A stretch of 52,919 nt of DNA from an uncultured Ruminococcus sp. (GTDB lineage: Bacteria > Bacillota > Clostridia > Oscillospirales > Acutalibacteraceae): contig CACXFS010000044.1 of the NCBI GenBank assembly GCA_902766885.1, positions 1 to 52,919 of the forward strand, in the 5' to 3' direction. The translations under genes and the position numbers were made by a program. Shown here piece by piece: positions 1,931 to 49,600 of the stretch. The notes beneath the pieces were generated by a model, which did not search any database, had not been told where the DNA came from, and was given only the letters and a program-made list of their open reading frames with translations. The number at the start of each line of letters is the position of its first letter. The stretch's first letter is position 1.

Positions 1931-4900
1931 ATGGTAAAAAAATACGCTAAAAAAATTACTGCTTTTATGATAGCGGTAACAATTGTTTTTTCAATGCTGC
2001 TGTATTTTCCGAGCGGAACATTCAGCAATATCGGCTTTGGACTTACGGCAAGTGCGGCGGAAATCACACTGACAGAGCCGTCAACTGATGACAATGGTGT
2101 GTACCAAATCGGAACAGCAGCGGAGCTTTACTGGTTTGCAGGACTTGTAAACGGTACGCTTGAGGACGTGACGCAGGACAGATTTGCAAACGCAGTCCTC
2201 ACGGCGGATATTACCGTGAACAGCAATTTGCTGAATTCTCTGAATGATGACGGTACTGTACCGGACGGAATTGCCGTCGCCGGCTGGACGCCAATCGGCA
2301 AAAATTCAAATCGGTACACCGGCACATTTGACGGACAGAATCACGCAATCAGCGGCTTATATTTCAATGATGCAAGTAAAGATTTTGTCGGCTTATTCGG
2401 TTATAGCCAAGGTACAGTAAAAAATGTCGGTGTTGTTGATTCCTATTTCAAAGGAGGTTGGTATGTCGGCGGCACATGCGGAAGGAATGACAATGGCACA
2501 ATCACAAACTGCTATAACAGCGGTGAAGTCAATGGTATAAATTTTGTCGGCGGCGTGTGCGGATGTAATTATGACGGCACAATAACCGGCTGCTACAACA
2601 CCGACGCAGTCAGCGGCAGTGATGGGTCTAAGTATGTCGGCGGCGTGTGCGGATATAATGATGGAGGCAAAATAACCGTCTGCTACAGCACCGGCGCAGT
2701 CAGCGGCAGTGATGGGTCTAAGTATGTCGGCGGCGTGTGCGGATATAATAATCTGGGCACCATCACAAACTGCTATAACGCAGGCACAGTCAATGGTACA
2801 CAAAATGTAGGCGGCGTGTGCGGAATTAATGATAATGGCACAATCACAAACTGCTATTATCTTGATAGCGAAGAAACAGACTCAATTGACGGCACAACAT
2901 TTAAAACCACAGAACAGTTTGCAAGCGGCGAGGTGGCATATCTCCTTTCACAGGGTGAAAACGGCGAAATCTGGGGACAGGAAATCGGCACAGACCCTTA
3001 CCCTGTTTTTGGCGGCACAAAGGTAAATAAGCTTACAAAAACTTACTGTGATAACACAACTGAACAAGGATACATCTACACAAATAGTTCTTCCTATATT
3101 TTACATAAAGAATACAATAATAACGGTTTCTGCACAAACTGCGGTGCATATCAGCCGGCAGTCTTCAATGAAACCAATAACTGCTACGAAATCTCCAACA
3201 CAGGTCAGCTTTACTGGTTTGCGGGACTTGTAAACGGTACGCTTGAGAACGTGACACAGAACAGATCTGCAAACGCAGTCATTACGGCAAATATTGTCGT
3301 GAATACGGGTGTGCTGAAATTAGACGGCACTCTTGCTGATGACACAAGCGGCTTTACAAGCTGGACGCCAATCGGTAGCAGTTCAAACTACTATACCGGC
3401 ACATTTGACGGGCAGAATCACACTATAAGCGGCTTGTATTTCAATAATGCAAACACAAGTCTTGTCGGCTTGTTCGGCTATGTAGGATCAAACGGCAGTG
3501 TTTCCAATGTTGGCATTGTTGATTCCTATTTCAATGGATGTCAGTTTGTCGGCGGCGTGTGCGGAGCTAATTTGGGCACAATCACAAACTGCTATAACAC
3601 AGGCAATGTCAGTGGTTCAAGTGCCATTGGCGGCGTGTGCGGAGCTAATTTGGACACAATCACAAACTGCTATAACACAGGCAATGTCAACGGTTCAGGT
3701 TATTTCGGCGGCGTATGCGGAAGTAATGAGTCCGGCAAAATAACCGGATGCTACAATATCGGCGCAGTCAGCAGCAGCGATGGGTCTCAGTATGTCGGCG
3801 GCGTGTGCGGATATAATTTTTGCATTAGTGCTGAAACAGCAGAAATCACAAACTGCTATTATGACAGCGATAAATACAGCGGAAATGCTGTTGACTATAA
3901 TGATGGCACAGTTACAGATGTCGAGGGTAAAACCACAGAACAGTTTGCAAGCGGCGAGGTTACATATCTCCTGAATGGTTCAACAAGTGAGGGTACTCTT
4001 GCTTGGGGACAAATGATTGGAAAAGATGATTACCCCGTTCTTGACAGCACTAAAAAGGTTTACTATGGTTATACCATATGTGATGAGAGCAAAGAAAAGA
4101 TTTACTCCAACACAGAGATGACTGACGTAAGACCTGAGCATAACTATTCAAACGGTATCTGTACTGTTTGCCGCATTTATGAGCCTGCAACCAAGAACGC
4201 AGACGGCGTTTACGAAATAAGCAACGCAGGTCAGCTTTACTGGTTTTCACAGCAGGTAAACAGCGGAAATAGAGGAATAAACGCAGTTCTCACGAATGAT
4301 ATTGTGGTGAATAAGAATGTTCTTGTAAATGGAGAGCTTAATTCAAGCCTGACTAATCCAAGAGAATGGACGCCAATCGGTAACAGTTCAAACTACTATA
4401 AAGGCACATTTGACGGGCAGAATCACACCATAAGCGGATTGTATTTCAACGATTCAAGCACAAGTTATGTCGGCTTGTTCGGCGGAAACTGGGGCACAAT
4501 AAAAAATGTCGGCGTTGTTGATTCCTATTTCAAAGGATATTATTATGTCAGCGGCGTGTGCGGAAATAATAATGGCACAATGACAAACTGTTATAACACA
4601 GGCACAGTCAGCGGAACAGAAAAAGAAGTCGGCGGCGTGTGCGCATGTAACAATGGCACAATTACAAACTGCAATAACATAGGGGCAGTCAGCGGCAGTA
4701 ATAATGTCGGCGGCGTGTGCGGATATAGTTCCAAAGAAATAACCGACTGCTACAACACCGGCACAGTCAGCGGCGGAGAGTCGTATGTCGGCGGCGTGTG
4801 CGGAGTAAATTGCGAAAAAATAACCGGCTGCTACAACACCGGCACAGTCAGCGGCAGAGAGTCGTATGTCGGCGGCGTATGCGGAGATAGTGGCGGCAAA

Positions 4901-7732
4901 ATAACCGGCTGCTACAATACCGGCGCAGTCAGCGGCAGCGATGGGTCTCAGTATGTCGGCGGCGTGTGCGGATATAGTTCCAAAGAAATAACCGGCTGCT
5001 ACAATACCGGCTCAGTCAGCGGCGGAGAGTCGTATGTCGGCGCCGTGTGCGGATATAATTCCGGCACAATAACCGGCTGCTATACAAACCGTGATGATGA
5101 AGAAGACACATATATTAAATCAGACGCAGAATTTAAAGACTCTACTGTATGCGGACTGCTCAATGCTGCTTTGATAAATTACGGCTCGGATGTCCGTTTC
5201 TATCAGGGCGTGAAATCGCCTGAGTTTATCCGTACTCCACAGCTTGTTGACGGTGTGTATCAGATTAGCTGCGCTTTGGAGCTTTACGGATTTGCAAAGC
5301 TTGTAAACAACGGCAACTTAAGCGCAAGTGCAGTTGTTACAGCGGATATTATTGTCAACAAATATGTGCTTAATGACAGCGGAGAATTAAACACCGACAC
5401 TTTCACCGACTGGACGCCCATTGGAAACGAATCCAATCCATATGCCGGCACATTTGACGGACAGGGTCACACAATCAGCGGCTTGTATTTAAATAATACA
5501 AGCACAAGCCGTGTCGGCTTGTTCGGCTGCCTCGGAGAAAACGGCGAAATCAAAAATGTAGGAGTAATTGATTCATATTTCAACGGCAGTGAGTATGTTG
5601 GCGGCGTGTGCGGAGAGAATGGCGGCACAATCACCAACTGCTATAACACAGGCATAGTCAGTGGTTCAGCTTATGTCGGCGGCGTGTGCGGATGTAATGA
5701 TGGTGGCACAATCACAAACTGTTATAACACAGGCATAGTCAATGGTTCAGCTTATGTCGGCGGTGTGTGCGGAAATAATGATGGCATAAACACAAACTGT
5801 TATAACACAGGCACAGTCAGTGGTTCAGCTTATGTCGGCGGTGTGTGCGGATGTAATGATGGCACAAACACATACTGTTATAACACAGGCACAGTCAGTG
5901 GCAGTACAGGTGTAGGCGGCGTGTGCGGATCTAATGAGAATGGCACAATCACAAACTGTTATTACATTGAAGGTTGCAACGCAGAGGAAACAACATTTGA
6001 TTGCTTCTATGCCGATATGAAAACTACAACGGAGTTCAACAGCGGCGAAGTATGCTATCTTCTGAACGGTTCAACAAGCGAGGGTACTCTTGCATGGGGA
6101 CAGAAAATCGGTACGGATCCTTACCCTGTTTTGGGAGGAGTAAAGGTTTATTATGAAGCTGAAAGCTCGTTTTATTCCAATTACGAACCTGCGACATATA
6201 ACACAACTGATAGTCGCTACGAGATAAGCAGTGCAGGTCAGCTTTACTGGTTTGCGGACTGTGTAAACGGAGGAAACACTTCGATAAACGCAGTTCTCAC
6301 AGCACCTATTACCGTGAACACAGGCGATGTTGCAAACTGTAACGGCACAAAGGAAGACGGCTGGATTGACTGGACGCCTATAGGAAAAAGCACTTCTACA
6401 TCGTATACCGGCACATTTAACGGACAGGGATATACTGTAAGCGGATTGTATTTCAATAATCCTGATGAAGCGTATGTAGGTTTGTTTGGCTGCGTAGATA
6501 GCGGCGGCAAGATTTCCTGTGTTGGTATTGCTGACTCATATTTCAGAGGAAATGACTATGTTGGCAGTATATGCGGAGAAAACGGCGGTATAATTACAAA
6601 TTGTTATAATTCAGGCGTAGTAATTGCAGTAAATCGTAAAGCTTCTGCCGGAGGTATCTGCGGATATAATGAAGGCGCAATTACAAATTGTTATAACACA
6701 GGCAATATCAGCGCAGAAGGCAGTGCATCATTAATCGGCGGCGTGTGTGCAGATAATGACGGCACAATCACAAACTGCTATTACCTTGCAGATACAGCAG
6801 ACGAAAACAGCGGCAAAACCACAGCGCAGTTCAACAGCGGCGAGGTTGCATATCTCCTTTCACAGGGCACAGACGGCTCAATCTGGGGACAGGAAATCGG
6901 CACAGAGGATTACCCTGTTCTGAACGGCAAAAAGGTTCTTGCAAATGTTGACCTGTCAGACTTTGCAAATGATATTATTGTTTATGGTCAGAGTGCTTCT
7001 CTTGACGGTACAATCGGCTTTAACATTTACGTTTCTGCTGATGATTCCTATGAGTGGGATAAGACTGTAAACGGCGTTCAGGGTGTGGAGATTGAAAACG
7101 GACTTTACAAGTTCACATATCTGGTTGCCGCAAAGGATATGGACAAAAAAATTAATTTCACTGTAAATGATAAAATTGATGTTACAGTTTCTGTTTCTGA
7201 TTATCTTGCAGTCCTTAGCAAATCCGATAATGAATCCCTCAAAAACCTTGCAGATTCCATGAGCGTTTACGGTGATGCAGCTAAGGCATACTTCAGCGGA
7301 GAAGCTGTTGCAGAGCAGACTGTTACAGACGATCTGAGTGTTTATGACTTCACAGTCGGCACAATGCCCGAAGGCATAAGCTACTACGGTTCAAGCCTTA
7401 TTCTTAAATCTGAAACCACTATCAGACATTATTTCAAGCTTGCAGAGGGCAAAGAGATTAGTGAATATACATTCTCAGTTGGCGGTAAGACATTAACACC
7501 TACAAAAAAACAGGGTTATTACTGCATTGACATAAAGAATGTCAGCGCAGAAAAGCTTGGAATATCATTTAATGTAAGTGTAAACGGCGAAGAAGTAATT
7601 ACAAATTACTCTGCTCTCAGCTATGTGTATAAGGCGCTGGACAGTGATTTAACAGATGATAACCTGAAAAATCTTGTAAAGGCACTTTATATCTACAACC
7701 AAAATGCACTTGCATATGTAAATGCAGAATAA
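1931..7732 (+). CDS. Giant secreted GLUG-repeat surface protein
   Basis: A 1933-residue protein. The ATG at 1931 is chosen because AGGAGG lies just ahead of it and the protein then begins with a signal peptide (VKKYAKKITAFMIAVTIVF, cleavage near ASAAE). The body consists of five blocks starting near residues 55, 417, 758, 1107 and 1423. Each opens with a YQIGTAAELYWF-like segment and a WTPIG...GTFDGQNHTISGLYF segment, continues with many GLUG motifs (VGGVCGYN, TITNCYNTG) and usually ends SGEVAYLL...WGQ.IG.D.YPV. FCTNCGAYQPA-like CxxC linkers join blocks. The last ~265 residues form a separate C-terminal domain. GLUG repeats probably fold as a beta-solenoid and occur in adhesins and surface proteins. 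No sortase motif or dockerin is visible, so the attachment mode is unknown. Confidence 0.85.
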   Translation: MVKKYAKKITAFMIAVTIVFSMLLYFPSGTFSNIGFGLTASAAEITLTEPSTDDNGVYQIGTAAELYWFAGLVNGTLEDVTQDRFANAVLTADITVNSNLLNSLNDDGTVPDGIAVAGWTPIGKNSNRYTGTFDGQNHAISGLYFNDASKDFVGLFGYSQGTVKNVGVVDSYFKGGWYVGGTCGRNDNGTITNCYNSGEVNGINFVGGVCGCNYDGTITGCYNTDAVSGSDGSKYVGGVCGYNDGGKITVCYSTGAVSGSDGSKYVGGVCGYNNLGTITNCYNAGTVNGTQNVGGVCGINDNGTITNCYYLDSEETDSIDGTTFKTTEQFASGEVAYLLSQGENGEIWGQEIGTDPYPVFGGTKVNKLTKTYCDNTTEQGYIYTNSSSYILHKEYNNNGFCTNCGAYQPAVFNETNNCYEISNTGQLYWFAGLVNGTLENVTQNRSANAVITANIVVNTGVLKLDGTLADDTSGFTSWTPIGSSSNYYTGTFDGQNHTISGLYFNNANTSLVGLFGYVGSNGSVSNVGIVDSYFNGCQFVGGVCGANLGTITNCYNTGNVSGSSAIGGVCGANLDTITNCYNTGNVNGSGYFGGVCGSNESGKITGCYNIGAVSSSDGSQYVGGVCGYNFCISAETAEITNCYYDSDKYSGNAVDYNDGTVTDVEGKTTEQFASGEVTYLLNGSTSEGTLAWGQMIGKDDYPVLDSTKKVYYGYTICDESKEKIYSNTEMTDVRPEHNYSNGICTVCRIYEPATKNADGVYEISNAGQLYWFSQQVNSGNRGINAVLTNDIVVNKNVLVNGELNSSLTNPREWTPIGNSSNYYKGTFDGQNHTISGLYFNDSSTSYVGLFGGNWGTIKNVGVVDSYFKGYYYVSGVCGNNNGTMTNCYNTGTVSGTEKEVGGVCACNNGTITNCNNIGAVSGSNNVGGVCGYSSKEITDCYNTGTVSGGESYVGGVCGVNCEKITGCYNTGTVSGRESYVGGVCGDSGGKITGCYNTGAVSGSDGSQYVGGVCGYSSKEITGCYNTGSVSGGESYVGAVCGYNSGTITGCYTNRDDEEDTYIKSDAEFKDSTVCGLLNAALINYGSDVRFYQGVKSPEFIRTPQLVDGVYQISCALELYGFAKLVNNGNLSASAVVTADIIVNKYVLNDSGELNTDTFTDWTPIGNESNPYAGTFDGQGHTISGLYLNNTSTSRVGLFGCLGENGEIKNVGVIDSYFNGSEYVGGVCGENGGTITNCYNTGIVSGSAYVGGVCGCNDGGTITNCYNTGIVNGSAYVGGVCGNNDGINTNCYNTGTVSGSAYVGGVCGCNDGTNTYCYNTGTVSGSTGVGGVCGSNENGTITNCYYIEGCNAEETTFDCFYADMKTTTEFNSGEVCYLLNGSTSEGTLAWGQKIGTDPYPVLGGVKVYYEAESSFYSNYEPATYNTTDSRYEISSAGQLYWFADCVNGGNTSINAVLTAPITVNTGDVANCNGTKEDGWIDWTPIGKSTSTSYTGTFNGQGYTVSGLYFNNPDEAYVGLFGCVDSGGKISCVGIADSYFRGNDYVGSICGENGGIITNCYNSGVVIAVNRKASAGGICGYNEGAITNCYNTGNISAEGSASLIGGVCADNDGTITNCYYLADTADENSGKTTAQFNSGEVAYLLSQGTDGSIWGQEIGTEDYPVLNGKKVLANVDLSDFANDIIVYGQSASLDGTIGFNIYVSADDSYEWDKTVNGVQGVEIENGLYKFTYLVAAKDMDKKINFTVNDKIDVTVSVSDYLAVLSKSDNESLKNLADSMSVYGDAAKAYFSGEAVAEQTVTDDLSVYDFTVGTMPEGISYYGSSLILKSETTIRHYFKLAEGKEISEYTFSVGGKTLTPTKKQGYYCIDIKNVSAEKLGISFNVSVNGEEVITNYSALSYVYKALDSDLTDDNLKNLVKALYIYNQNALAYVNAE
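4540..5085 (+). repeat. In-gene tandem GLUG repeats, block 3
   Basis: About seven consecutive imperfect units of roughly 65-80 bases, each coding for a YVGGVCG...TGCYNTGTVSG-type unit. Several units are almost identical at DNA level (GTCGGCGGCGTGTGCGGA recurs), so the copy number is open to slippage or recombination. Confidence 0.7.
5585..5965 (+). repeat. In-gene tandem GLUG repeats, block 4
   Basis: Five consecutive units of about 75-81 bases, the most homogeneous in the gene (repeated GSAYVGGVCG / NCYNTG codons with nearly unchanged third positions). This suggests recent duplication within the array. Confidence 0.7.
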
Positions 7733-7747
7733 AAAGGAGGACTTACC

Positions 7748-7858
7748 GTGAAAGAAGAATACATTAAACCTGAAATTGAAATAGTTGAATTTGAGTGTGA
7801 GGACGTTATAACTACAAGCGGTATTAGCACTGACGAAGATGAACTGCCGATTATGTAA
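7748..7858 (+). CDS. 36-residue acidic peptide, candidate precursor of the downstream cassette
   Basis: The GTG at 7748 has an AAAGGAGG site 7-8 bases upstream and lies 16 bases after the GLUG stop codon. The peptide begins VKEEYIKPEIEIVEFECEDV, continues with an ITTSGIS segment and ends in DEDELPIM. It has no signal peptide, one Cys, and an acidic, Thr/Ser-containing second half. Its end, ELPI plus one residue, resembles the tails of two other proteins in the same operon (ends at 10135 and 10646). It is followed by a strong hairpin and then by PqqD-like, peptidase and nucleotidyltransferase genes. In RiPP clusters a short leader-core precursor upstream of a PqqD-type recognition protein is usual, so a substrate role is likely but unproven. 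Confidence 0.65.
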   Translation: MKEEYIKPEIEIVEFECEDVITTSGISTDEDELPIM

Positions 7859-7874
7859 ATAAAAAATAACAAAA

Positions 7875-7915
7875 ATATGGTAGCCGCACTGTTTAGTTAC
7901 GGTGCGGTAACATAT
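7875..7915 (+). terminator. Hairpin between the peptide gene and the PqqD-like gene (attenuator or processing site)
   Basis: ATATG...CCGCAC (7875-7889) pairs with GTGCGG...CATAT (7902-7915), giving a long stem with single-base bulges and a 12-base loop, followed by TTTC. It lies between the small ORF and the enzymes, where partial termination or RNA processing could keep the peptide mRNA more abundant than the enzyme mRNA. Confidence 0.55.
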
Positions 7916-7944
7916 TTCAAAAAGTTTATCAGGGAGTTATTAGT

Positions 7945-8205
7945 ATGAAACTCAAAGACGGATTTGTAACACATATGTTTGATGATACTCAGGTGTTAAT
8001 CGGAACAGAAGCGGTATCCTTTAAGGGAATTGTAAACAGCAACAAGACAGCGGCGTTTATTGTTGATTGCCTGAAAACCGATACAACCGAAAGTCAGATA
8101 GTTGAAAAAATGCTTGAAAAATATGATGCCGACAAAGCAGTGATTGAAGAAGATGTGCATATGATTATTCAAAAACTGCGAGGCATAGGAGCGCTTGATG
8201 AATAA
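7945..8205 (+). CDS. PqqD-family peptide-recognition protein
   Basis: An 86-residue protein with the size and pattern of PqqD-like proteins: beta-rich start with VTHMFDDTQVLIG, then a helical half ending in EEDVHMIIQKLRGIGALDE. Family knowledge: PqqD and RiPP recognition elements bind leader peptides and present them to modifying enzymes. CAGGGAG precedes the ATG at a normal distance, and the stop codon overlaps the next start by 8 bases, indicating coupled translation. A 36-codon ORF lies directly upstream, which fits a peptide-binding role. The assignment rests on pattern and context. Confidence 0.7.
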   Translation: MKLKDGFVTHMFDDTQVLIGTEAVSFKGIVNSNKTAAFIVDCLKTDTTESQIVEKMLEKYDADKAVIEEDVHMIIQKLRGIGALDE

Positions 8206-8614
8206 GCAGAGCTTTGAGGAGTACCTTAAAAATCACGAAAGACTTGTTTACAGAAACACAGGCACAAGTATGCTTCCACTCTTAAAGCAAGGAAGGGATT
8301 TCTTCATTGTAGAAAAGGTTAATAACCGACAGCTCAAAAAATATGATGTTGTACTATATAAGCGACAGCCCGACAGCTATGTGCTTCATCGCATTATAAG
8401 AATTAAAAACGGAAAATATATAATCATAGGCGATAACTGTATAAACAAGGAATACGGAATAACCGATAACGATATAATCGCAGTTATGACAGGCTTTATC
8501 CGAAAGGGTAGGCAACACAGCACTTCAGAATTTTTCTACAAGCTGTATTCCGTCTGTCATTGTGCACTGGGTCCGTTAAGAATACTCTTGTTCAGAATCA
8601 GGTGTAAGCTATGA
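8198..8614 (+). CDS. S24/S26 (signal-peptidase-like) serine peptidase
   Basis: A 138-residue protein. The ATG at 8198 overlaps the PqqD-like stop and has ATAGGAG 7 bases before it. The N-terminal RNTGTSMLPLLKQGRDFFI carries the SxMxP signature with the candidate nucleophile Ser. VVLYKRQPDSYVLHRI and YIIIGDNC match the later conserved boxes of S24/S26 peptidases, with His in HRI as probable partner, as in SipW-type enzymes. There is no clear N-terminal membrane anchor; a hydrophobic C-terminus (ALGPLRILLF) might associate with membrane. It could cleave the 36-mer or the two ELPI-tailed proteins, but that substrate choice is inference. Confidence 0.75.
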   Translation: MNKQSFEEYLKNHERLVYRNTGTSMLPLLKQGRDFFIVEKVNNRQLKKYDVVLYKRQPDSYVLHRIIRIKNGKYIIIGDNCINKEYGITDNDIIAVMTGFIRKGRQHSTSEFFYKLYSVCHCALGPLRILLFRIRCKL

Positions 8615-9774
8615 ACGAATTAGTAAAAACAGGATATGATATGCTCTATCTTTCACTTTGCGCATTGAACAATATCACACCCGATAAAGAGCGAGTGGAA
8701 GAAATGAACAACGATATGCTATTTGAGCTTTGTCAGAAACACAGCCTGACCTCACTTGTTTACTATGCGCTTGCAAAGGTAATTACTCCCGGGCACAGGT
8801 GGCTTGAAGCAAACGGAAAAGCTGTCAGAAAAAATATGCTCCTTGACCTTGAAAGAGAAAAAATACTTGCCTTTATAAATGATAACGGAATAAAGCATAT
8901 GCCGTTAAAGGGAATAATCTTAAAGGAGCTTTATCCAAAGCCTTATATGCGCCAGATGTCAGATAACGACATTTGGTTTGATGAAAGCCATAGCAGAGAA
9001 CTTGAACAATTTATGCAAAAGCTCGGATATAAGGACATTGTTATTGGAAAAGGCAATCACGATAACTACAAAAGACCGCCGATATATAATTTTGAAATGC
9101 ATCGTGAATTATTCAATAAATCACAGGAACCTTTTTACAGCTACTATAAGGACATAAACAGACTTTTCATTCGTGATAAAAACAGCAAATACGGTTGTCA
9201 TTTCGAAATTAATGACTTTTATGTATATATGTTAGCTCACGAATACAAGCATTATTCAATCGGCGGTACAGGCTTAAGGTCAATTATTGACTGTTGTGTA
9301 TATCTTAAAAAATATGGTAATGAACTCAATTTCTCATACATAGAAACAGAAACAAAAAAGCTGGGTATATCCGAATTTGAAGAAAAGCAGAGAATGCTCT
9401 GCCGTAAATTAATAAATATGAATTTTGATATGCTTTGCGGATATGAAAAAGAAATGCTTGAGTATTTCTTTTTAAGCGGTGTATACGGAAACTTTGAAAA
9501 TAAAGTGAGCAACAAGCTAAAGAGCTTTGATGCAGACGGAAAAATAAATTCAAAATCAAAGGTTAAGTATATTTTATCACGCATATTTCCGTCTATGGAA
9601 TTTTACAAAGTTTATTACCCGTTTTTTTACAAACATAAGTTATTTTTGCCAATCTGTTTTTTAGTCAGAGTGTATAAGGGGATTTTTGTAAGCCGTAAAA
9701 AGCTGAAAAAAGAAATACAGGTATTGAAAAAGCATAATTATCAAAGCGAGGATAAAAATTATGAAAAGATTTAA
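8611..9774 (+). CDS. Nucleotidyltransferase-fold protein (NTP_transf_5-like)
   Basis: A 387-residue protein starting in an ATGA overlap with the peptidase gene. The central part contains HMPLKGIILKELYP and YMRQMSDNDIWFDE, matching the uncharacterised nucleotidyltransferase family PF14907 (KG motif and DxD-type metal-binding acidic pair). The family adds nucleotides or phosphate-type groups to unknown acceptors; members occur in some lasso-peptide and other RiPP clusters with PqqD-like proteins. The basic C-terminal region (SRKKLKKEIQVLKKHN) is not assigned. The stop overlaps the next gene's start, so five or more genes appear to be co-translated. Confidence 0.75.
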   Translation: MNELVKTGYDMLYLSLCALNNITPDKERVEEMNNDMLFELCQKHSLTSLVYYALAKVITPGHRWLEANGKAVRKNMLLDLEREKILAFINDNGIKHMPLKGIILKELYPKPYMRQMSDNDIWFDESHSRELEQFMQKLGYKDIVIGKGNHDNYKRPPIYNFEMHRELFNKSQEPFYSYYKDINRLFIRDKNSKYGCHFEINDFYVYMLAHEYKHYSIGGTGLRSIIDCCVYLKKYGNELNFSYIETETKKLGISEFEEKQRMLCRKLINMNFDMLCGYEKEMLEYFFLSGVYGNFENKVSNKLKSFDADGKINSKSKVKYILSRIFPSMEFYKVYYPFFYKHKLFLPICFLVRVYKGIFVSRKKLKKEIQVLKKHNYQSEDKNYEKI

Positions 9775-10135
9775 ATGTATAATTTTATGTTTAATGTCGG
9801 CTGTTACTGCATTAGTGTTCTCTTCAATGACCGCAGCAGCACTTGAAGATGATGAAACCGAAATTATTCCGAGCACTCCGATTGTGTCGCCAAAGGGTGA
9901 TGTCACGCTTGACGGAAAACTGGATATTACAGACGCTACAATGATTCAGAAATACTGCGCATCAATTATTACATTCAGCAGTGCTCAGAAAAATCTCGCA
10001 GATATTGACAAAAGCGGAGCAATAGATATTGCTGACGCAACATATATTCAGAAAAAAATATCGGGCTTGATTGCTGATGATTCAGACAAAAAAGATGATG
10101 TAATTGAATTGCCGATAATTCCGGTAGTAAGATGA
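9761..10135 (+). CDS. Small secreted type I dockerin protein with an ELPI tail
   Basis: A 124-residue protein with signal peptide (KRFKCIILCLMSAVTALVF, cleavage near TAAA) and a complete dockerin at about residues 47-107: two calcium-loop/helix repeats, GDVTLDGKLDITDATMIQK and ADIDKSGAIDIADATYIQK. Dockerins plug into cohesins of cellulosome- or amylosome-like complexes. No catalytic or binding domain accompanies it. The final KKDDVIELPIIPVVR follows the dockerin and resembles the ends of the 36-mer and the next protein. GAGG precedes the ATG and the start overlaps the nucleotidyltransferase gene. It may be a cohesin-targeted carrier of the processed tail. Confidence 0.85.
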   Translation: MKRFKCIILCLMSAVTALVFSSMTAAALEDDETEIIPSTPIVSPKGDVTLDGKLDITDATMIQKYCASIITFSSAQKNLADIDKSGAIDIADATYIQKKISGLIADDSDKKDDVIELPIIPVVR

Positions 10136-10172
10136 TGATAATTTATGTTGACCGAAAGGCTGTGAAGTTATT

Positions 10173-10646
10173 ATGAAAAAAAGGAATATCATTATTTTAG
10201 TATCTGTACTATCAGCTGCTCTTGTGATTGCCGGCATAATAATTGCTGTATTCTGCTTTGGGAATTCAAAAAGCAGTAATATTGAAACAGGCAAAAATCC
10301 TTCTGTTTATACAACTGAGTCTGCCATTGAAAAAAGTACCTCCTCGAATTCTTCTTCTCCGAGCAAAAGTGATTCCTCATATTTGACTGATTCGCAAGTT
10401 TCAGAAAAAAGTGACTCTGATGTTCCGCAAAGAGAAGACGGAGAACTTGAAATCATTGGCGGCAATGAAAACGGAGCAGAATCAGGAAACAGCAAATCAC
10501 CGGGAAATAATTCGAACAAAAAATCAGAAAGCGGTTCATCGGAATCTTCAAAGCAAGAAGGCGGCTCGTCAGCATCTTCAAATAAAGAGAGCAGTTCCTA
10601 TTCTTCGTCGGAAAGCGTGATTGAATTACCGATAGTCACTGTATGA
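10173..10646 (+). CDS. Membrane-anchored Ser-rich protein with an ELPI tail
   Basis: A 157-residue protein with a single N-terminal membrane helix (residues 4-30: NIIILVSVLSAALVIAGIII) without an obvious cleavage site. About 115 residues of Ser/Lys/Glu/Asn low-complexity spacer follow, probably extending through the cell wall. The last residues are SVIELPIVTV, nearly the same as the dockerin protein's tail (VIELPIIPVV). No enzymatic domain is present. It is the last gene of the co-directional block and may display the tail outside the membrane. I do not recognise a named family. Confidence 0.7.
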   Translation: MKKRNIIILVSVLSAALVIAGIIIAVFCFGNSKSSNIETGKNPSVYTTESAIEKSTSSNSSSPSKSDSSYLTDSQVSEKSDSDVPQREDGELEIIGGNENGAESGNSKSPGNNSNKKSESGSSESSKQEGGSSASSNKESSSYSSSESVIELPIVTV

Positions 10647-10802: not shown

Positions 10803-11947
10803 CAGGATATAGTTGAGAGTACAACTGTATATGGAAATGACAAGGGCATAACAGGCACAAGCGCACTGAAACGTGATGAGTTTCAAAAGATGATTCGTAT
10901 GTGTAAGAGAAAACAGATTGATATGATAATCACAAAATCAATATCAAGATTTTCAAGAAATACTGTTGACTGTCTGAATTATGTAAGAATGCTCAGGCAA
11001 CTTGATGTAGATGTATTCTTTGAAGAACAGGGAATACACAGCAAGGACGCAGGCGCAGAATTTTACATTACAATCTACGGCAGTATAGCACAGAGCGAAT
11101 CGGAAAATATCAGTGCCAATGTCCGCTGGGGCATACAGCAAAGAGCAAAAGAAGGCAAGGTGCATTTCGCCTTCAGCATATTTCTCGGCTACAAAGAAGG
11201 TCCTGACGGAAAATCGATGATTGATGAGGAACAAGCAGACACGGAAAATTCATATTCAACGAATACCTGTTAGGAAGCAGTCTTGCCGATATAGCCAAAT
11301 CGCTTACTGCTAAGGGCATAAAAACTACGAGCGGTAAATCAGATTGGAACGGCAGTACGGGCAGATGCACTTGGACTGCAAGCGGTAAGAAGAAAATCGT
11401 GTGGAGATGCATTAACCGACTTGACTACGGTAAAAAATACTGTCATCACTTCCCTACTATTGAAGAGAGCGTATTGCAAAACGCAATCATTACAGCCGTA
11501 ATGAACAACGCACAGCAAAGCTCTGATGCACTTTCAATCCTTAAAGAGCATATTCGTATAGGAATCCAAGCTGATGAAGTTGAAGATAACAGTCTTGAAC
11601 TTCTGATTGAAATTGCAAAGCTTGATGAGAAATACAATGAGCTGTTTAATAAAATGACAGCCGATACTGAAGATATAGAAAGTATAGAAAATCAGCTTAT
11701 AGAGATTATTAATAAAAAGCATTCACTTCAGGCACAGGTTGAAGAAATCAAGAATGAACGCATAAAACGAGAAAATGCACAGTCAAGACTTGAGCAGATA
11801 TACCTCATACTTGACGGCTTGAAAAACCACCCGATGGCTTATAACGACACCTTGGTCAGACAGATACTTGACACAGTAGTAGTTGAGTCCAAGGAGAGGA
11901 TAAAGGTAGTCTTCACAGGCGGCTATGAGGCAGAACAGGAGCTTTGA
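10803..11947 (+). pseudogene. Large serine recombinase remnant, N-terminally truncated and frameshifted
   Basis: The first part (10803-11273) reads ...VYGNDKGITGTSALKRDEFQ...IDMIITKSISRFSRNTVDCLNY..., the second half of a serine-recombinase catalytic domain; the N-terminal ~60 residues with the nucleophile Ser are missing. Near 11250 the frame shifts and continues FIFNEYLLGSSLADIAKSL ... TWTASGKKKIVWRC ... to TGA 11947, i.e. recombinase domain, a shortened zinc ribbon and the C-terminal coiled coil. It cannot be active. It lies beside the first copy of the 160-bp dispersed repeat, so it marks an old insertion. Confidence 0.85.
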
Positions 11948-18478: not shown

Positions 18479-18628
18479 TTACTTCTTTAAGATATTCTTA
18501 AGATTTTCGGGTTCTTTCGGCTGTCTGAGACCGCAAATGGAAGCAGAACCGCAAGCATATGAAGCAAACTTTTCGGCTGTTTTCTTAATAATACCTACAA
18601 CCATTTTTTTAGTTGTATTAGCTTTCAT
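18479..18628 (-). CDS. agrD: AgrD-like cyclic lactone autoinducer precursor
   Basis: A 49-residue peptide. An amphipathic basic N-terminus (MKANTTKKMVVGIIKKTAEK) is followed by a Cys-containing core (ASYACGSASICGLRQ) and an acidic tail (PKEPENLKNILKK). This three-part layout, with an ACGS.. core and a QPKEP-type processing region, is typical of clostridial AgrD. It overlaps agrB by 11 bases and has an AGGAG-type site in the agrB end. AgrB should cut after the core and close a thiolactone. Two Cys residues (in ACGS and SICG) make the ring position ambiguous. Confidence 0.88.
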   Translation of the reverse strand: MKANTTKKMVVGIIKKTAEKFASYACGSASICGLRQPKEPENLKNILKK

Positions 18629-19214
18629 AGTTTCTTTTTCTCCTTTCCTTTATTTTTCCTAATATTATCAGCACTGAAATCATCAGCAACGTACACGACA
18701 ACAAACTGCCGTAAACTACCGAATAACAGTGCATAATAAGTGATACAAGACTTATCAGCGCAGAAATTAATATTGCTTTCAGCTTTAATCCCATTCTTTT
18801 TTCGGCAGGAATCGGTTTGTTCCTGTTTTCTATCGGACTGAAAAATGCAATAATTGATAAAGAAAATAAATCAATTGCCAAAAGCAGATATACTGAATTA
18901 TAAACTTTCAGAATTTCAAATAACAACAGTACCATAACAAAGGAGATACAGAAAAACATGTTACATCTGAAATATGTATCAGCATGATATCCGCCTGAAA
19001 ACTGTCGTATTGGTATGAATACAGCTAAAAAAATCACGCTTTCAATAAAACGCCCTGTTACAGCGCCTATTGATAATATCAGCACTATATTCAATATAGA
19101 TGACAACGCAATTTCAATTCCGTATTTATAGCATCTGAATTCATTGATATCCCCGGATATTTCATTAGAATCAACAAGAAACCCGGTTATTTTTTCAGAT
19201 ATTTCTTCAATCAA
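18618..19214 (-). CDS. agrB: AgrB-like membrane endopeptidase
   Basis: An approximately 198-residue membrane protein. The TTG at 19214 is preferred because AGAGG lies 8 bases upstream; a GTG at 19223 overlaps that site. The conserved catalytic region RQFSGGYHADTYFRC holds the His and Cys expected for AgrB peptidases, followed by several hydrophobic helices and a short basic C-terminus (KIKERRKRNYES). It processes and cyclises AgrD. Upstream lies a 9-bp direct repeat with a 22-bp period (19257-19287) that overlaps the expected -35 region. Confidence 0.9.
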   Translation of the reverse strand: MIEEISEKITGFLVDSNEISGDINEFRCYKYGIEIALSSILNIVLILSIGAVTGRFIESVIFLAVFIPIRQFSGGYHADTYFRCNMFFCISFVMVLLLFEILKVYNSVYLLLAIDLFSLSIIAFFSPIENRNKPIPAEKRMGLKLKAILISALISLVSLIMHCYSVVYGSLLSCTLLMISVLIILGKIKERRKRNYES

Positions 19215-19256
19215 ATTTATCACCTCTTTGTCACAATTAAACTATATATCACAAAA

Positions 19257-19287
19257 AACAACACGTCTACAGTTTTGGAACAACACG
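19257..19287 (-). promoter_or_regulatory. Perfect direct repeat, candidate AgrA/LytTR operator of agrBD
   Basis: On the minus strand CGTGTTGTT occurs at 19287-19279 and again at 19265-19257, separated by 13 bp. Two 9-bp direct repeats spaced 12-13 bp are the described layout of AgrA/LytTR binding sites. A -10-like TATAGT (19246-19241) lies downstream, so the proximal repeat would overlap a missing -35 box, as expected for an activated promoter. Confidence 0.65.
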
Positions 19288-19308
19288 AAAAATTCAGGCA
19301 TAAAATGC

Positions 19309-19348
19309 AAAAAGATGTTTCGGACAAACAGTCTGAAACATCTTTTTT
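19309..19348. terminator. Bidirectional terminator between the kinase gene and agrBD
   Basis: A 17-bp stem (19309-19325 with 19331-19348, one G-T pair) with A/T runs on both sides (AAAAAGATGTTTC ... GAAACATCTTTTTT). It ends the kinase transcript at 19371 and isolates agrBD under its own promoter. Confidence 0.85.
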
Positions 19349-19370
19349 ATAAAAATAAACATAAATTTAT

Positions 19371-20687
19371 TTATAAATATTTTAATATTATATAGCAAAT
19401 AAAAAAGTCATCATTTTCAAAAAAATCCGCCATTCCGTTATACTTTTTTGCTATATCCTTAATTATTTTAGTTCCCAAGCCGTGCAGATGCTTATCTTTT
19501 TTGGTAGTAATCAAATTTGGATTATTTTGGATAACAGAACCTTCAATCGAATTTTTCATACAGAATGTATAGTTTGATTCATCTTTCTTTATAGAAAAAT
19601 GAATCTGTCTGTTTTCTTTCACCTTACGGCAAGCGTCAATGGCATTGTCAAACATATTGCTTATAAGACTGCATAAATCGAGGTCATCAATACCGTCGAA
19701 ATCCGAAACTGTAACAATTGAGGTTTCAATATCTAAGCTTTTTGCAACTTCTGCCTTGCAATTTATTATTGCATTTACTATATTGTTGTCTGTATTTACA
19801 AAAGTTCCCGAAACAGACATTTGGTCAAGGTAATCGCTTACATACTGCTTTGCCTTGTCAAAATCTCCGTTCTCTAATAACGATGCAATTACAATGTTAT
19901 GATTTTTAAAGTCATGTCGAAGTTTTCTAATAGTTTCATACTGATTTTCAGCATTTTCCAGATATTGCTGTTGATATTTCTGCTGAACTCTGAGCAGCTG
20001 ATTTTCCCTGACTGCGCTGTTTTTTCTGCTTAAATTTACTACAAGATAAACGGTTACAATATTAATAACTACTATTCCTAATATACAAATTACAATCAGC
20101 CATCTTGTATAATCCGGAATTTCCTGCATTGCAACAAAAGTCAGTAAAATCGAAATAACTATGCTGATAAAAAGCACCGCTAATATCAGCAGCCATTCGT
20201 GGTTGCTCAAATCACTTTTGTTTTCGTGTCTGAATATTCCAAGTGTAAGTTTGTATATGTACAGAATAATAAGCTGGCACACCACTACGCTTATAAGACG
20301 TTCAAGCGACTGAACAGTAAAAATTTCATCCAATTGCCGGTGAAATAATACCGAGAAAAAATTTGCAACTAAAACACTAAAAATGCTGATAAAAATAACG
20401 GAAAACGAAGAAATAAAAAGTTTTTTCATCATTTTTCCCTTAAGTCTCAGCAATGAGTAAAGAAAAACTATCACTATATATGCATATATATACATCCCAT
20501 CGAAGTATATAAAATAGTTAATTAAAGTAATCACAGCGGTCAATAAAAAGCCGCATACTAATCCGCCGCTTTTTATAAATGAACGTTTTTCTTTATCACC
20601 GAGAATTGAATACACATAGTGAGATATTAAAATTCCCTGAAACAAATTAATCCCGATTTCAAACAATACCCACAAAATATCTTTCAT
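19371..20687 (-). CDS. AgrC-like GHKL sensor histidine kinase
   Basis: A 438-residue protein. The N-terminal ~210 residues hold six hydrophobic helices, the usual AgrC peptide sensor. A coiled linker leads to RKLRHDFKNHNIVIASLL, with the phospho-acceptor His in the HDFKNH box. The GHKL ATPase has NMFDNAIDACRK (N box) and HGLGTKIIKDIAKKYNG (G box). It should sense the processed AgrD peptide and phosphorylate the regulator. It begins in an ATGA overlap with the regulator gene, so the two are co-translated. Confidence 0.88.
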   Translation of the reverse strand: MKDILWVLFEIGINLFQGILISHYVYSILGDKEKRSFIKSGGLVCGFLLTAVITLINYFIYFDGMYIYAYIVIVFLYSLLRLKGKMMKKLFISSFSVIFISIFSVLVANFFSVLFHRQLDEIFTVQSLERLISVVVCQLIILYIYKLTLGIFRHENKSDLSNHEWLLILAVLFISIVISILLTFVAMQEIPDYTRWLIVICILGIVVINIVTVYLVVNLSRKNSAVRENQLLRVQQKYQQQYLENAENQYETIRKLRHDFKNHNIVIASLLENGDFDKAKQYVSDYLDQMSVSGTFVNTDNNIVNAIINCKAEVAKSLDIETSIVTVSDFDGIDDLDLCSLISNMFDNAIDACRKVKENRQIHFSIKKDESNYTFCMKNSIEGSVIQNNPNLITTKKDKHLHGLGTKIIKDIAKKYNGMADFFENDDFFICYIILKYL

Positions 20688-21415
20688 ACCAGATTCCTTA
20701 AATACAACATATGTTTTTCAATTACTTCTTTTTTCAGATTTCGGCTCATCGGTAATTTTTTATTTATTGTTTTAAGTCCGATTTCATCATTGCTTTTGTC
20801 AACGAAATCAACATACCGTAAATTAACAATGTAGCTCTTATGTATCCTGATAAAATCATATTTTTCAAATTTAATTTCACAATCTTTTATCGTTGCTCTC
20901 ATTCTGAAAGGAATATCCTCACCGCTGACAAAAAAATTAATATAGTGTTTTTCGCTTTCAAGATAAACAATGTTTCGGATAGGAACAATATGAGTCCTCG
21001 AAAATTCGTCTTCAAACGTAAAAGTTTCGTTCTGCTTTGTATGGAAAATCAACTTCTTAACCGAATGATTAAGACTTTTAATCAGCGAATCTCTTGAATT
21101 TTTCCTGATGAAATCAAAGGGTTGAAAATCAAAGCTGTCATACACCAGTTCTGAATGGGAAGTAATAAAAATAATATAGCATTTTGAAAATTCTTCTCTT
21201 ATTGTCTTAGCCACATCAAATCCCGTAACATTAGGCATATCAATATCAAGAAAAATAACGTCAAAATTGTTTCTGTTATGAGCTTCAAGCAACGCTTTTC
21301 CGGAAATAAAGCAAAATATTTCAAATTCTGTTGTGTATTGCCTGAACAAAGTATTCAGAGTCGGTTTCAGAAACAAAAGTATTTCTCTGTTGTCATCGCA
21401 AATTGCTATTCTCAT
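20684..21415 (-). CDS. AgrA-like LytTR response regulator
   Basis: A 243-residue protein (a GTG at 21424 would add three residues). Residues 1-120 are a receiver domain: MRIAICDDNREIL with the acidic pair, DVIFLDIDMP with the phospho-acceptor Asp, IIFITSHSELVYD and the conserved Lys region. Residues about 135-243 are a LytTR domain (IVYLESEKHYINFFV, FIRIHKSYIVNLRYVDFV). LytTR regulators bind paired direct repeats, and the CGTGTTGTT pair before agrB is the natural target. A TATAAT lies at 21462-21457 on the minus strand with a weak -35. Confidence 0.9.
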   Translation of the reverse strand: MRIAICDDNREILLFLKPTLNTLFRQYTTEFEIFCFISGKALLEAHNRNNFDVIFLDIDMPNVTGFDVAKTIREEFSKCYIIFITSHSELVYDSFDFQPFDFIRKNSRDSLIKSLNHSVKKLIFHTKQNETFTFEDEFSRTHIVPIRNIVYLESEKHYINFFVSGEDIPFRMRATIKDCEIKFEKYDFIRIHKSYIVNLRYVDFVDKSNDEIGLKTINKKLPMSRNLKKEVIEKHMLYLRNLV

Positions 21416-21571
21416 TTTAATCACTCACATCCATAAAATTTATTTGCCTTATTGCCATTATATCACATGATAGTAAATTTTAAAACAGATATATAAAAAA
21501 ATGCTGTTTTTTGACGAATTTTTTATTTTATTGCATTTGAAGACAAAATTTAGCCTGTTGTGCCTAAACTG

Positions 21572-46680: not shown

Positions 46681-49600
46681 TTGAAAAAGACAGTATTAAA
46701 AAGAATAACAGCTTTATTACTTTCGACTATACTTTCTGTTGGAATGCTGATAACTCCTGTATCAGCAACAACAACTGTAAAAGGAGCTCTGAAAGAAATA
46801 GGCATTGAGAAGCTTGTTGAAACCGGAATGCGCGTGGCAGCCGAAGCGTGCGAGGAGCTTGGCAAGGCAACGGGTACTGAAACAGGTGAAGAAATTTTTT
46901 CTTTTATAGCAGACTGGGTTTTCTCAAGCGGTGCAGAGTCGGCGGCAAATAAGGCAAAGGAGCTGTGCGAGGAAATTCTTGAACAAATCAAAGAACTGGA
47001 AATCGAAATAAACGACGATTTTTCTGTTGTTGAAAGTCAGATAAGCCAGGAAGCTGTCAACACAGCAAAGACAAATCTCCAGAATAAGTGGAAAAGCGAT
47101 GTTGACAATGTAATATCATACAATAATGCGACTGCATCGCTCGACAGTTATAAGAGCTATTTGAATAATTCCATTGAAAATAATGCTAAATATCATGACG
47201 GAAATATTTCGTATTCAGAACTTGAGGATTCAGTAGAAAAGGATCTTGAAGGACTGCTTGACGAATTTTACACAATGTACGTATTAATAGACGGCGAAAG
47301 TTCCTCAAGCGACGACAAAGACTATGCAATGTTTTACTCTAAAAAAATGAATGCAACTTTTGAAAATATAATTACTTTGCTTGCTACAAATCTTGATGCC
47401 GTAGAAAGCGGTTCGGTTGAGGAATATGCCGTTCAGTATGCATGCAACGCATTTCCGTTCAGTCATCAGCAGTATTCATTTGTTCATAACTATGTGGAAA
47501 AGCAGATTCTTCAGCTGATACTGGTTGAAATGATGTATAACGAATATTTGTATCAGCAGGGAGCTTTTATAGAAAATTATGAAAGCGAAGATAAGGATTC
47601 TCAGGCTTATCAGAATTATCTTAATCACCAGAGCTCCTTCTATACTCTTATGAGCGAAACTGTTAAGGACCATATAACAAATATGCTTAGCAGGGAAGTG
47701 GTTGCTGACAGTACCCGGAATTTTTCCCTTGACAGCTATATGAAGCCCGAGGATGCGGTGTCAGACTATTTAAAAATAAACGGTTACAGACCATATTATT
47801 CTACTCCGGGTACAACTACCAATAGCAAATATATATATGATACTGTGCGTTTTAATCGTGTTATGACACAAACAGGAAATAAAAATAATGTTTATTACAT
47901 TCTTGATCCAAGTCAGTTTTCCGATTCCAATGCGACAAAAGCACTTGCAATGGATACGAAAATAGATAATCCAAGCGGCTTTGATACACACGTTCCAAGC
48001 TGTGACTATCTGAATCTTACCAACAATTCTATGTCTGACGGAGTAAACACCTTTGCTTGTTCTGCGGATATATTCGGACTTTTTGACACAAAAGCATTTC
48101 GCTGGCTTGACAGCAAGCCCTCTACATATCTTAAGGAATATATTCCGAGCGGAACAACCCTTTTTATGACTCCCAAATATGAATACGGTTCAACTCAGCT
48201 TTTTGACACTACCTACGAGAAATTCTGGGTTATCGAAGGCGATACAGCAGTGTCCGGCTCTGATGTATCAACCAAGGAGTACTCCGCCGAGGCTTTCCAA
48301 TCCGATAAAGGCGGCGATAAATATAGTTATTCGGTAGTTCTTGCAAACAACAGCGATGAATACAAGCAGAAGGCTACCTTAAAAATTCCCGCACATTTAG
48401 AGGCAAGCGTTACCGACAGCGACGGCAATAAAATTATTGACACAACAAGCGGCGACGCTTCTCCGTCAGCCAACATCACTTCGGGTAAAATGCTTACAAT
48501 CAAATTCAAGGTTGATGACGGCTACTGTGTTGAATTATTAAATTGCATCAGAAATAACAGCAATTCAACCGAAACTGTCCTTTTTGACAGCGACGATATT
48601 GACATTCTGAAAACGGACGGAGAATATTACACATTTTCTTATCCTATGCCGTATTCCAATACTACCTTTGAATTTAAAGTAGTATCGGATGAAGGAGAAT
48701 ATGACATTTGGACTCCCGAAGACCTTATAAACTTTTCGAATGATATGAACAACGGAGTTAATCCGGATACAACCGCAAATTTGTGTGCCGATATTGACAT
48801 GACGGGCTACGAGGGTCAGCTCAGTCCTGTAGGAAACTCCAAACATCCCTTCAAAGGAGTATTTAACGGTAACAACCATAAAATTGAGGGATTGAAATTT
48901 AAAAATTTTGATTACTGCGGTCTTTTCGGATATATTGAAAATGCAGAGATAAAGGACGTTACCGTCAGCGGAGATTTTTCTCTTGCGGAATCCTCAAAAA
49001 TTAAGCAAGCAGGCGGAGCAGTAGGCTATGCAAACGGCGGCAGTCTGACAAATATCACCTCATATGTCACCATTTCAAAGGCAGATACATATATAATTCC
49101 AAATGTCGGCGGTATTGTCGGCTCGGTGGGTGCAAATGAAACGACAATCAAAAACTGTATGTTCGGTGGAACACTGAATCTTACAGATTGCGGTCCGAAT
49201 GTCGGCGGTATTGTCGGCAGAGCAGAAGAAGGAGCAGTGATTAAAAGCTGTGCAAACGTCGGCACAATTAATACCGCTAATTCTATAACTTGTGCCGGCG
49301 GAATCCTTGGCTTTCAAAAAGGAACTACCGTGTCCATTGAAAATTGCTACAATTATTCAAAGTTGGGCGGTTCTCAGAAGGAAGATCCTGACAGCTGTTT
49401 CGGTGCAATTATTGGCTATATAGACGAGGATGATATTTCCTACAATATAAGTGATAACTATTATCTTGACGTTTCCTGCGATAAAGTTATCGGAGATTCT
49501 TTGGGAGATATCAGCAATCCGGATTCATTAGCAACGAAAAAGTCAGAGGCTCAGTTTGCTTCGGGCGAGGTTGCTTATCTCCTTAACCACAAGGTGACAG

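Follow-up and report, generated by a model that had tools for sequence, protein, structure and literature searches.

A C-terminal tail shared by a RiPP-like peptide, a dockerin protein and a membrane-anchored protein in a Ruminococcus operon

Linear polyphosphorylated peptides (LPPs) are ribosomally synthesised and post-translationally modified peptides (RiPPs) whose clusters were published in May 2026 (Popov et al. 2026, PMC13381572). In the part of that paper available to us, they comprise a discrete RiPP recognition element (RRE), a signal-peptidase-like leader peptidase with a Ser-His-Asp triad, a nucleotidyltransferase (NTP transferase) and a precursor with a YxxP leader, with no cyclase; deletion of the NTP transferase gene lppN caused no detectable change in product, and the biological role of LPPs is stated to be unknown. 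Similarly, in the available text of PMC9266682, the wider family of paeninodin- and pseudomycoidin-type lasso peptides combines a PqqD-type RRE with tailoring by a kinase and nucleotidyltransferase-like proteins, and the homologue PsmN is required for hexose addition to a phosphorylated serine. Here an operon resembling these clusters is described from an uncultured Ruminococcus sp. (assembly GCA_902766885.1), the window being the whole 52,919-nucleotide stretch of contig CACXFS010000044.1 that was analysed. At positions 7748-10646, it encodes a 36-residue peptide, a PqqD-like protein, a protease, an NTP_transf_5 protein, a dockerin protein and a membrane-anchored protein, with the peptide and the last two proteins ending in a common tail. 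Short motifs at the C-termini of different exported proteins are familiar from the LPXTG and PEP-CTERM sorting signals, and dockerin adaptors are known from cellulosomes.

The shared tail and its carriers

The peptide, the dockerin protein and the membrane-anchored, serine-rich protein end in ELPIM, ELPIIPVVR and ELPIVTV, respectively (Table 1). An earlier note on the same DNA had picked out the LPI end of the peptide, which is present, but the ELPI end common to the two exported proteins went unnoticed there. Across the genus, the full form of the tail is YELPFIP followed by one or two residues. A search for this pattern in the DNA of 150 genus genomes, independent of PqqD, found 50 sites in 34 of them and none for the reversed pattern; the site was a gene end in 29 of the 30 loci that this search returned. 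When 53 distinct sites were examined, 51 were gene ends and two were not, with 49 having one or two residues after the last proline. Matches were found in three of 300 genomes from the wider family, four of which belonged to the same genus, and represented two genuine tails and one site that was not a gene end.

The tails are associated with PqqD. In 100 loci from the genus, tails were present on 42 of 463 open reading frames (ORFs) near PqqD and on the same strand, against two of 1,121 others (odds ratio 56, p = 5e-21, excluding L076 as a duplicate of L071), although the tail and peptide patterns were composed after examples had been viewed and, close species not being independent, the p values given here are optimistic. 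The 42 include at least one apparent chance match (L045) and one that is marginal (L034), while both of the distant tails look like genuine dockerin carriers, one of them (L120) lying around 70 bases from a PqqD match by coordinates. A comparison made by hand placed 21 of the 50 YELPFIP sites no more than about 3.2 kb away from a listed PqqD match, and a further 20 YELPFIP loci that were fetched had no PqqD nearby, with a fragment of the NTP transferase in one (L264).

In the tail alignment, columns -5 to +3 around the proline are better kept and those of the spacer are variable; conservation of the ELP columns follows from the selection of rows, leaving the neighbouring columns alone as informative. 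This alignment leaves out three spurious rows (window 10752, L093 10548 and L052 2788) and includes four operon proteins that the crude classifier had overlooked; a fifth could not be located. Within the 20 loci having at least two tails, the residue following ELP agreed in 23 of 32 pairs, where shuffling among carriers of the same type would be expected to give 11.1 (p = 5e-5), part of this agreement being due to shared ancestry. The tail is conserved, and its position is at the C-terminus.

A rule-based classifier, which placed L088 672 among the dockerin proteins when it reads as a lipoprotein, divided the 53 YELPFIP sites into 28 on dockerin proteins, 20 on lipoproteins, one on an LPP-like peptide (L276), two unclear and the two that are not gene ends. 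Tailed dockerin proteins are mostly around 105-165 aa long, consisting of a signal peptide, one dockerin, a spacer and the tail; one of 404 aa (L273) follows what reads as a papain-like frame. In the tailed lipoproteins, a lipobox is followed by a Ser/Thr-rich spacer and then the tail. The lipoprotein and dockerin protein occur as a pair alone in L277 and L280, and all three carriers are found together in the window, L052, L053, L088, L115 and L126. The two exported proteins reported by the earlier note were both recovered in the window: the first matches PF00404 (Dockerin_1) at 40.9 bits (cut-off 22.9) over residues 45-100 of 124, and the second, the membrane-anchored protein, matches no Pfam family above cut-off. 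In common with cellulosome adaptors, the dockerin is of type I and the genome has two cohesin matches, the products of which may pair with it, but the protein has no enzyme or other domain, only the spacer and tail. A separate membrane protein of approximately 200-235 aa with an acidic end (...DEIDLV) recurs between the enzymes and tailed proteins in L088, L092, L096, L104, L114, L115, L126 and L129.

A second association is with BigC, the conserved C-terminal domain of a giant secreted GLUG-repeat protein, the gene for which lies outside the coordinates considered by the earlier note and stops 15 bases upstream of the peptide's start. BigC is present in 23 of 36 tail-bearing loci against four of 64 others, and in 83 of the 150 genus genomes: 30 of the 34 with a YELPFIP site, against 53 of the 116 without. 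It occurs once in the window's own genome; several copies are found in many genomes, and hence it is not confined to these operons. An AlphaFold model of BigC has two beta-plus-helix halves (mean pLDDT 82, pTM 0.79), and a fold search of this model against the PDB gave one match under E = 0.001 and query-normalised TM-scores of at most 0.21 among the 50 matches listed, which were judged not meaningful.

No mention of ELPFIP, YELPFIP or ELPFVP was found in the open-licence PMC papers searched, to which the tail adds a C-terminal motif. None of these papers combined dockerin, Ruminococcus and PqqD; none was on topic by title, as far as titles go, for dockerin with RiPP; and none brought together four of the five subjects signal peptidase, RiPP, HPr kinase, nucleotidyltransferase and exopolysaccharide. 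As the last search also missed PMC13381572, such negatives are not exhaustive.

Enzymes and precursor peptide

The six genes of the earlier note were all found, with the overlaps at 8198/8205, 8611/8614 and 9761/9774 confirmed in the sequence. Its PqqD-like and NTP_transf_5-like assignments held, the proteins scoring 51.4 bits against PF05402 (cut-off 23.4) and 135.6 bits against PF14907 (cut-off 31.2). The family PqqD profile matches the lasso RRE TbiB1 (PDB 5v1u, E = 2.8e-5). Residues K100, G101, R114, D118 and D120 of the NTP_transf_5 protein are invariant in 42 of 42 aligned relatives, and a PDB sequence search with this protein gave weak caspase matches only (best E = 0.051). The S24/S26 peptidase is signal-peptidase-like, with Ser25, His65 and Asp80 invariant in 46 of 46 aligned relatives, but falls under the cut-off of every family model: 14.1 bits for Pfam Peptidase_S24 (cut-off 23.3) and 40.7 bits for the nearest, the archaeal-type signal peptidase I TIGR02228 (cut-off 51.85), with SipW also matched. 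PHROGs gave one weak match to the protease, of unknown function.

Judged by these families, the RRE, Ser-His-Asp protease and NTP_transf_5 protein are the core enzyme set already described for LPPs, the likeness of the protease to LppS resting on its type and triad. RiPP-type maturation without radical-SAM, YcaO or cyclase enzymes, as the earlier note proposed, is supported, but the enzyme set is not new (PMC13381572). Of the two findings that the note had set against its own interpretation, one, a prior description of the trio, is therefore the case, and the other, a 36-mer not conserved in relatives, is not, since the peptide family recurs beside PqqD. As far as the available part of the LPP paper extends, the window shares each of the components listed above, and related modules of both are near polysaccharide-type genes; L039, L043, L049, L059 and L068 read as preceding polysaccharide chain-length- and tyrosine-kinase-like genes. 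On the same footing, the window differs in having neither a kinase nor an MsbA-like exporter inside the operon, in the shorter leader of its precursor and the other consensus after YxxP, and in the dockerin and membrane proteins bearing the precursor's C-terminal tail, a feature undescribed for LPPs. The shared tail would be the new part of a system whose machinery is already known.

No HprK-like kinase is found in the operon, although there are two HprK-like genes elsewhere in the genome, and no MsbA-like exporter is present among the operon ORFs, the rest of the genome not having been searched for one. One of the HprK-like genes belongs to an operon (L167, C11:28089-29949) that has no PqqD beside it and whose other products are a giant protein, a 49-aa peptide of the YxxP type (MRKLYEEPLFEVDKFSFED...) and a dockerin protein. 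The same genome harbours a second PqqD-protease-NTP transferase set (L033, on C36), adjoining GroEL and without tail proteins, for which no precursor was found; L037 is listed alongside it as a set of this second type. Natural protease-NTP_transf_5 fusions of around 485-495 aa are present in L061, L079, L102, L104, L115 and L129.

The 36-mer has a GTG start, with GGAGG seven bases upstream at 7736-7740, no Pfam match and a single weak NCBIfam match, to a sactipeptide precursor (13.5 bits, far under the 42-bit cut-off). ORFs with its leader pattern account for 28 of 1,631 small ORFs near PqqD against two of 10,628 elsewhere, one of these two being a true member. Among the relatives' leaders, the 152 pairs differing by no more than six amino acids showed 534, 305 and 1530 differences at codon positions 1, 2 and 3, respectively; the leader is consequently under selection as protein. 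The window's leader is YIKPEIEIVEFECEDVITTSG, and relatives have, for instance, YERLLMDVTEFDTEDVITTSG. Set against the LPP leader consensus YxxPxVLxHQxIxFETxxS, YIKPEI fits YxxPx[VI] and the remainder differs (IEIVEFECEDVITTS), many relatives having YxxL. With its YxxP leader and recurrence beside PqqD, the peptide fits a putative LPP-type precursor. The check suggested by the earlier note, whether short ORFs of this kind recur beside the trio, was borne out beside PqqD for the leader but less so for the end, as E[LM]P or DLP was read by eye in 12 of the 28 PqqD-linked peptides, two of these being loose (L061 and L127). One peptide subfamily (L054, L090, L099, L110 and L116) has the same leader and different ends, such as APGSWF; dockerin proteins near L054 and L099 end in DGWGR-IFKP-like tails, which perhaps represent a second tail system.

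A PqqD match is present in 143 of the 150 genus genomes, and a close one (best E below 1e-14) in 65. Type-1 PqqD genes are defined differently, by a score of 52 bits or more in the fetched loci; of the 88 that are followed by 2 kb or more of sequence, 51 have an adjoining protease, 39 an NTP protein and 29 both; a protease-NTP fusion is found in nine and HprK upstream in 18. These loci are the best PqqD matches rather than a random sample, and many end at contig ends. The 80 loci from named relatives are mostly from Ruminococcus, Clostridia and Clostridiales metagenome-assembled genomes, many from rumen and gut, and include the cultured Ruminococcaceae bacterium P7, in which locus L186 contains a tail as well as a peptide. 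A radical-SAM RiPP was rejected, a radical-SAM relative being near only three of the 88 type-1 loci (L035, L036 and L038). A lasso cluster was likewise rejected: in contrast to the paeninodin and pseudomycoidin type (as given in the available text of PMC9266682), the operon has no B2 peptidase and no macrolactam cyclase among its ORFs, a genome-wide cyclase search not having been made, and the B2 leader peptidase PF13471 has two matches in the genome, both below cut-off.

Possible roles of the tail

The interpretation preferred here, albeit tentatively, is that three products of the operon carry a single recognition tag at the C-terminus: one held by a membrane anchor, one bearing a dockerin and one a modified peptide. 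The same tail on all three suggests one molecular address presented from three anchors, and its nearly constant distance from the C-terminus points to a free end as the feature recognised. By analogy with LPPs, PqqD would bind the YxxP leader of the 36-mer, the signal-peptidase-like enzyme would cleave near EDVITTS to release the leader, and the serine of TTS may be decorated by the NTP_transf_5 protein and a kinase acting in trans, the LPP core being phosphorylated on serine, yielding a short linear modified peptide ending in ELPI. The dockerin protein would bring the tail to a cellulosome-type scaffold and the membrane-anchored protein would display it at the cell surface by means of a flexible tether, such that the tail could be placed on the membrane, the scaffold or whatever the modified peptide is joined to. 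One receptor would read it; BigC is perhaps the first candidate, on account of its association with tails. More doubtful is the fuller claim that YELPFIP-x(1-2)-COOH, in the form of ELPI variants here, is an address tag that a RiPP core has in common with a lipoprotein and a dockerin adaptor, and that a dedicated receptor reads it. The earlier note had envisaged a peptide-tag maturation or nucleotidylation system acting on surface proteins, of which what stands is the C-terminal tag shared by peptide and surface proteins, and that much only.

A number of observations weigh against three carriers of a single tag. In the window's own genome, which as analysed is 2.02 Mb and 92.6% complete, the DNA patterns for ELPI and ELPF with I, V or M as the next residue match ten and three times, respectively, no more often than the reversed patterns (seven and six); what stands out is that three of the matches are gene ends within one operon. 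In favour of the tag, these three are the only matches ending frames of more than 32 codons within 10 residues, six others ending frames of at most 32 codons that were judged not to be genes. Around 20 tail genes are away from any listed PqqD, and hand comparison of the genome-level tables for PqqD, YELPFIP and BigC left three of the 34 YELPFIP genomes without a close PqqD, G141 having no PqqD match at all, and four without a BigC match. Neither protease (S26) nor NTP protein is next to PqqD in 27 of the 88 type-1 loci, a recognisable E[LM]P or DLP tail is missing from 16 of the 28 PqqD-linked peptides, and BigC has no fold match suggestive of peptide binding.

The main alternative, unlikely as we judge it, is that PqqD itself reads the tail as a second docking site, through which the RRE would capture the exported proteins in the cytoplasm for modification by partner enzymes before export. 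YELPFI fits the published RRE motif [Y/W]xxPx[L/V/I/F/A], meaning PqqD could read it, and Y, W or F occupies position -3 before ELP or EMP in 46 of 61 pattern rows (three rows being later dropped as spurious). PqqD is also the closest system gene in loci lacking both the protease and NTP protein (L060 and L065), and a close PqqD is present in 31 of the 34 genomes with YELPFIP against 34 of the 116 without. However, the window's own tails have I or D at the aromatic position, RRE binding would not explain a fixed distance to the free C-terminus, and Sec-exported proteins would need to be captured before export.

Rather less probable is that the tail directs sorting or processing at the C-terminus, with cleavage or ligation by an enzyme whose gene lies elsewhere. 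As with LPXTG and PEP-CTERM, a fixed short motif ends otherwise different exported proteins, but beyond it there are usually just one or two residues (as at 49 of the 53 sites), with neither a transmembrane helix nor a cluster of basic residues; moreover, the carriers already have a lipid or membrane anchor or a dockerin, and the tail is also on a RiPP-like peptide that has no apparent signal peptide. It is improbable, too, that this is an ordinary LPP cluster in which duplication or gene conversion has made neighbouring ends similar without a function of their own: copying would yield the agreement of tail variants within loci, but the tail is kept at gene ends over many loci while spacers vary, and is also found on isolated genes far from PqqD. 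Least probable is a signalling peptide released from the three carriers, like C-terminal pheromones, which would suit the short, hydrophobic, octapeptide-like ends of secreted proteins in a cell that, from the reading of an agr-like locus in the window, probably uses peptide signals, but for which neither a cognate receptor nor a release protease was found and to which dockerin or lipid anchoring is unsuited.

Through the shared tail, one branch of RiPPs is tied to the cell surface in rumen and gut bacteria of the Ruminococcus type. Should the fuller claim of an address tag with a dedicated receptor be correct, LPP-type peptides would represent a protein-docking tag in chemically anchored or mobile form, and a RiPP family of unknown role would gain a job in cell-surface assembly; a short synthetic tail peptide would offer a direct handle for finding the receptor.

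Gene order and neighbouring features

Table 1. Positions of the operon genes, their tails and the upstream giant gene in the window
Feature	Position	Strand	Basis
Giant secreted GLUG-repeat protein	1931..7732	+	17 Glug stretches
BigC domain, last 264 residues of the giant protein	6938-7729	+	Conserved C-terminal domain
36-aa LPP-like precursor peptide (putative)	7748..7858	+	YxxP leader, EDVITTS, ribosome site, family near PqqD, codon-position bias
C-terminal ELPIM of the 36-mer	7841-7855	+	
PqqD-type RRE	7945..8205	+	PF05402; family profile matches TbiB1
Signal-peptidase-like Ser-His-Asp protease, LppS-like	8198..8614	+	TIGR02228 below cut-off; conserved triad
NTP_transf_5 protein, LppN-like	8611..9774	+	PF14907; invariant residues
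Exported single-dockerin protein; spacer, then ELPIIPVVR at the C-terminus (10106-10132)	9761..10135	+	PF00404
Membrane-anchored Ser-rich protein with C-terminal ELPIVTV (10623-10643)	10173..10646	+	N-terminal hydrophobic segment by sequence reading

Promoter-like sites number 14, against 12.8 in shuffled sequences, and terminator-like sites three, against 1.7. Serine-recombinase-like fragments, seen from the reading of ORFs, flank the giant gene and cassette at 41-337 and 10890-11947 (both on the forward strand), and this block may consequently have been transferred as a whole. Another giant protein of the GLUG type, at 46681-52344 on the forward strand, has a sortase-type C-terminus (TGSEMCGAILLAALLSLTVILIAKRRNKIG) and is not among the genome's BigC matches. 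On the reverse strand, 18479-21424 harbours what we take to be an agr-type quorum-sensing locus, with a 49-aa AgrD-like peptide, an AgrB-like membrane protein (18618-19223), a GHKL-type histidine kinase (19371-20687) and a LytTR-type regulator (20684-21424).

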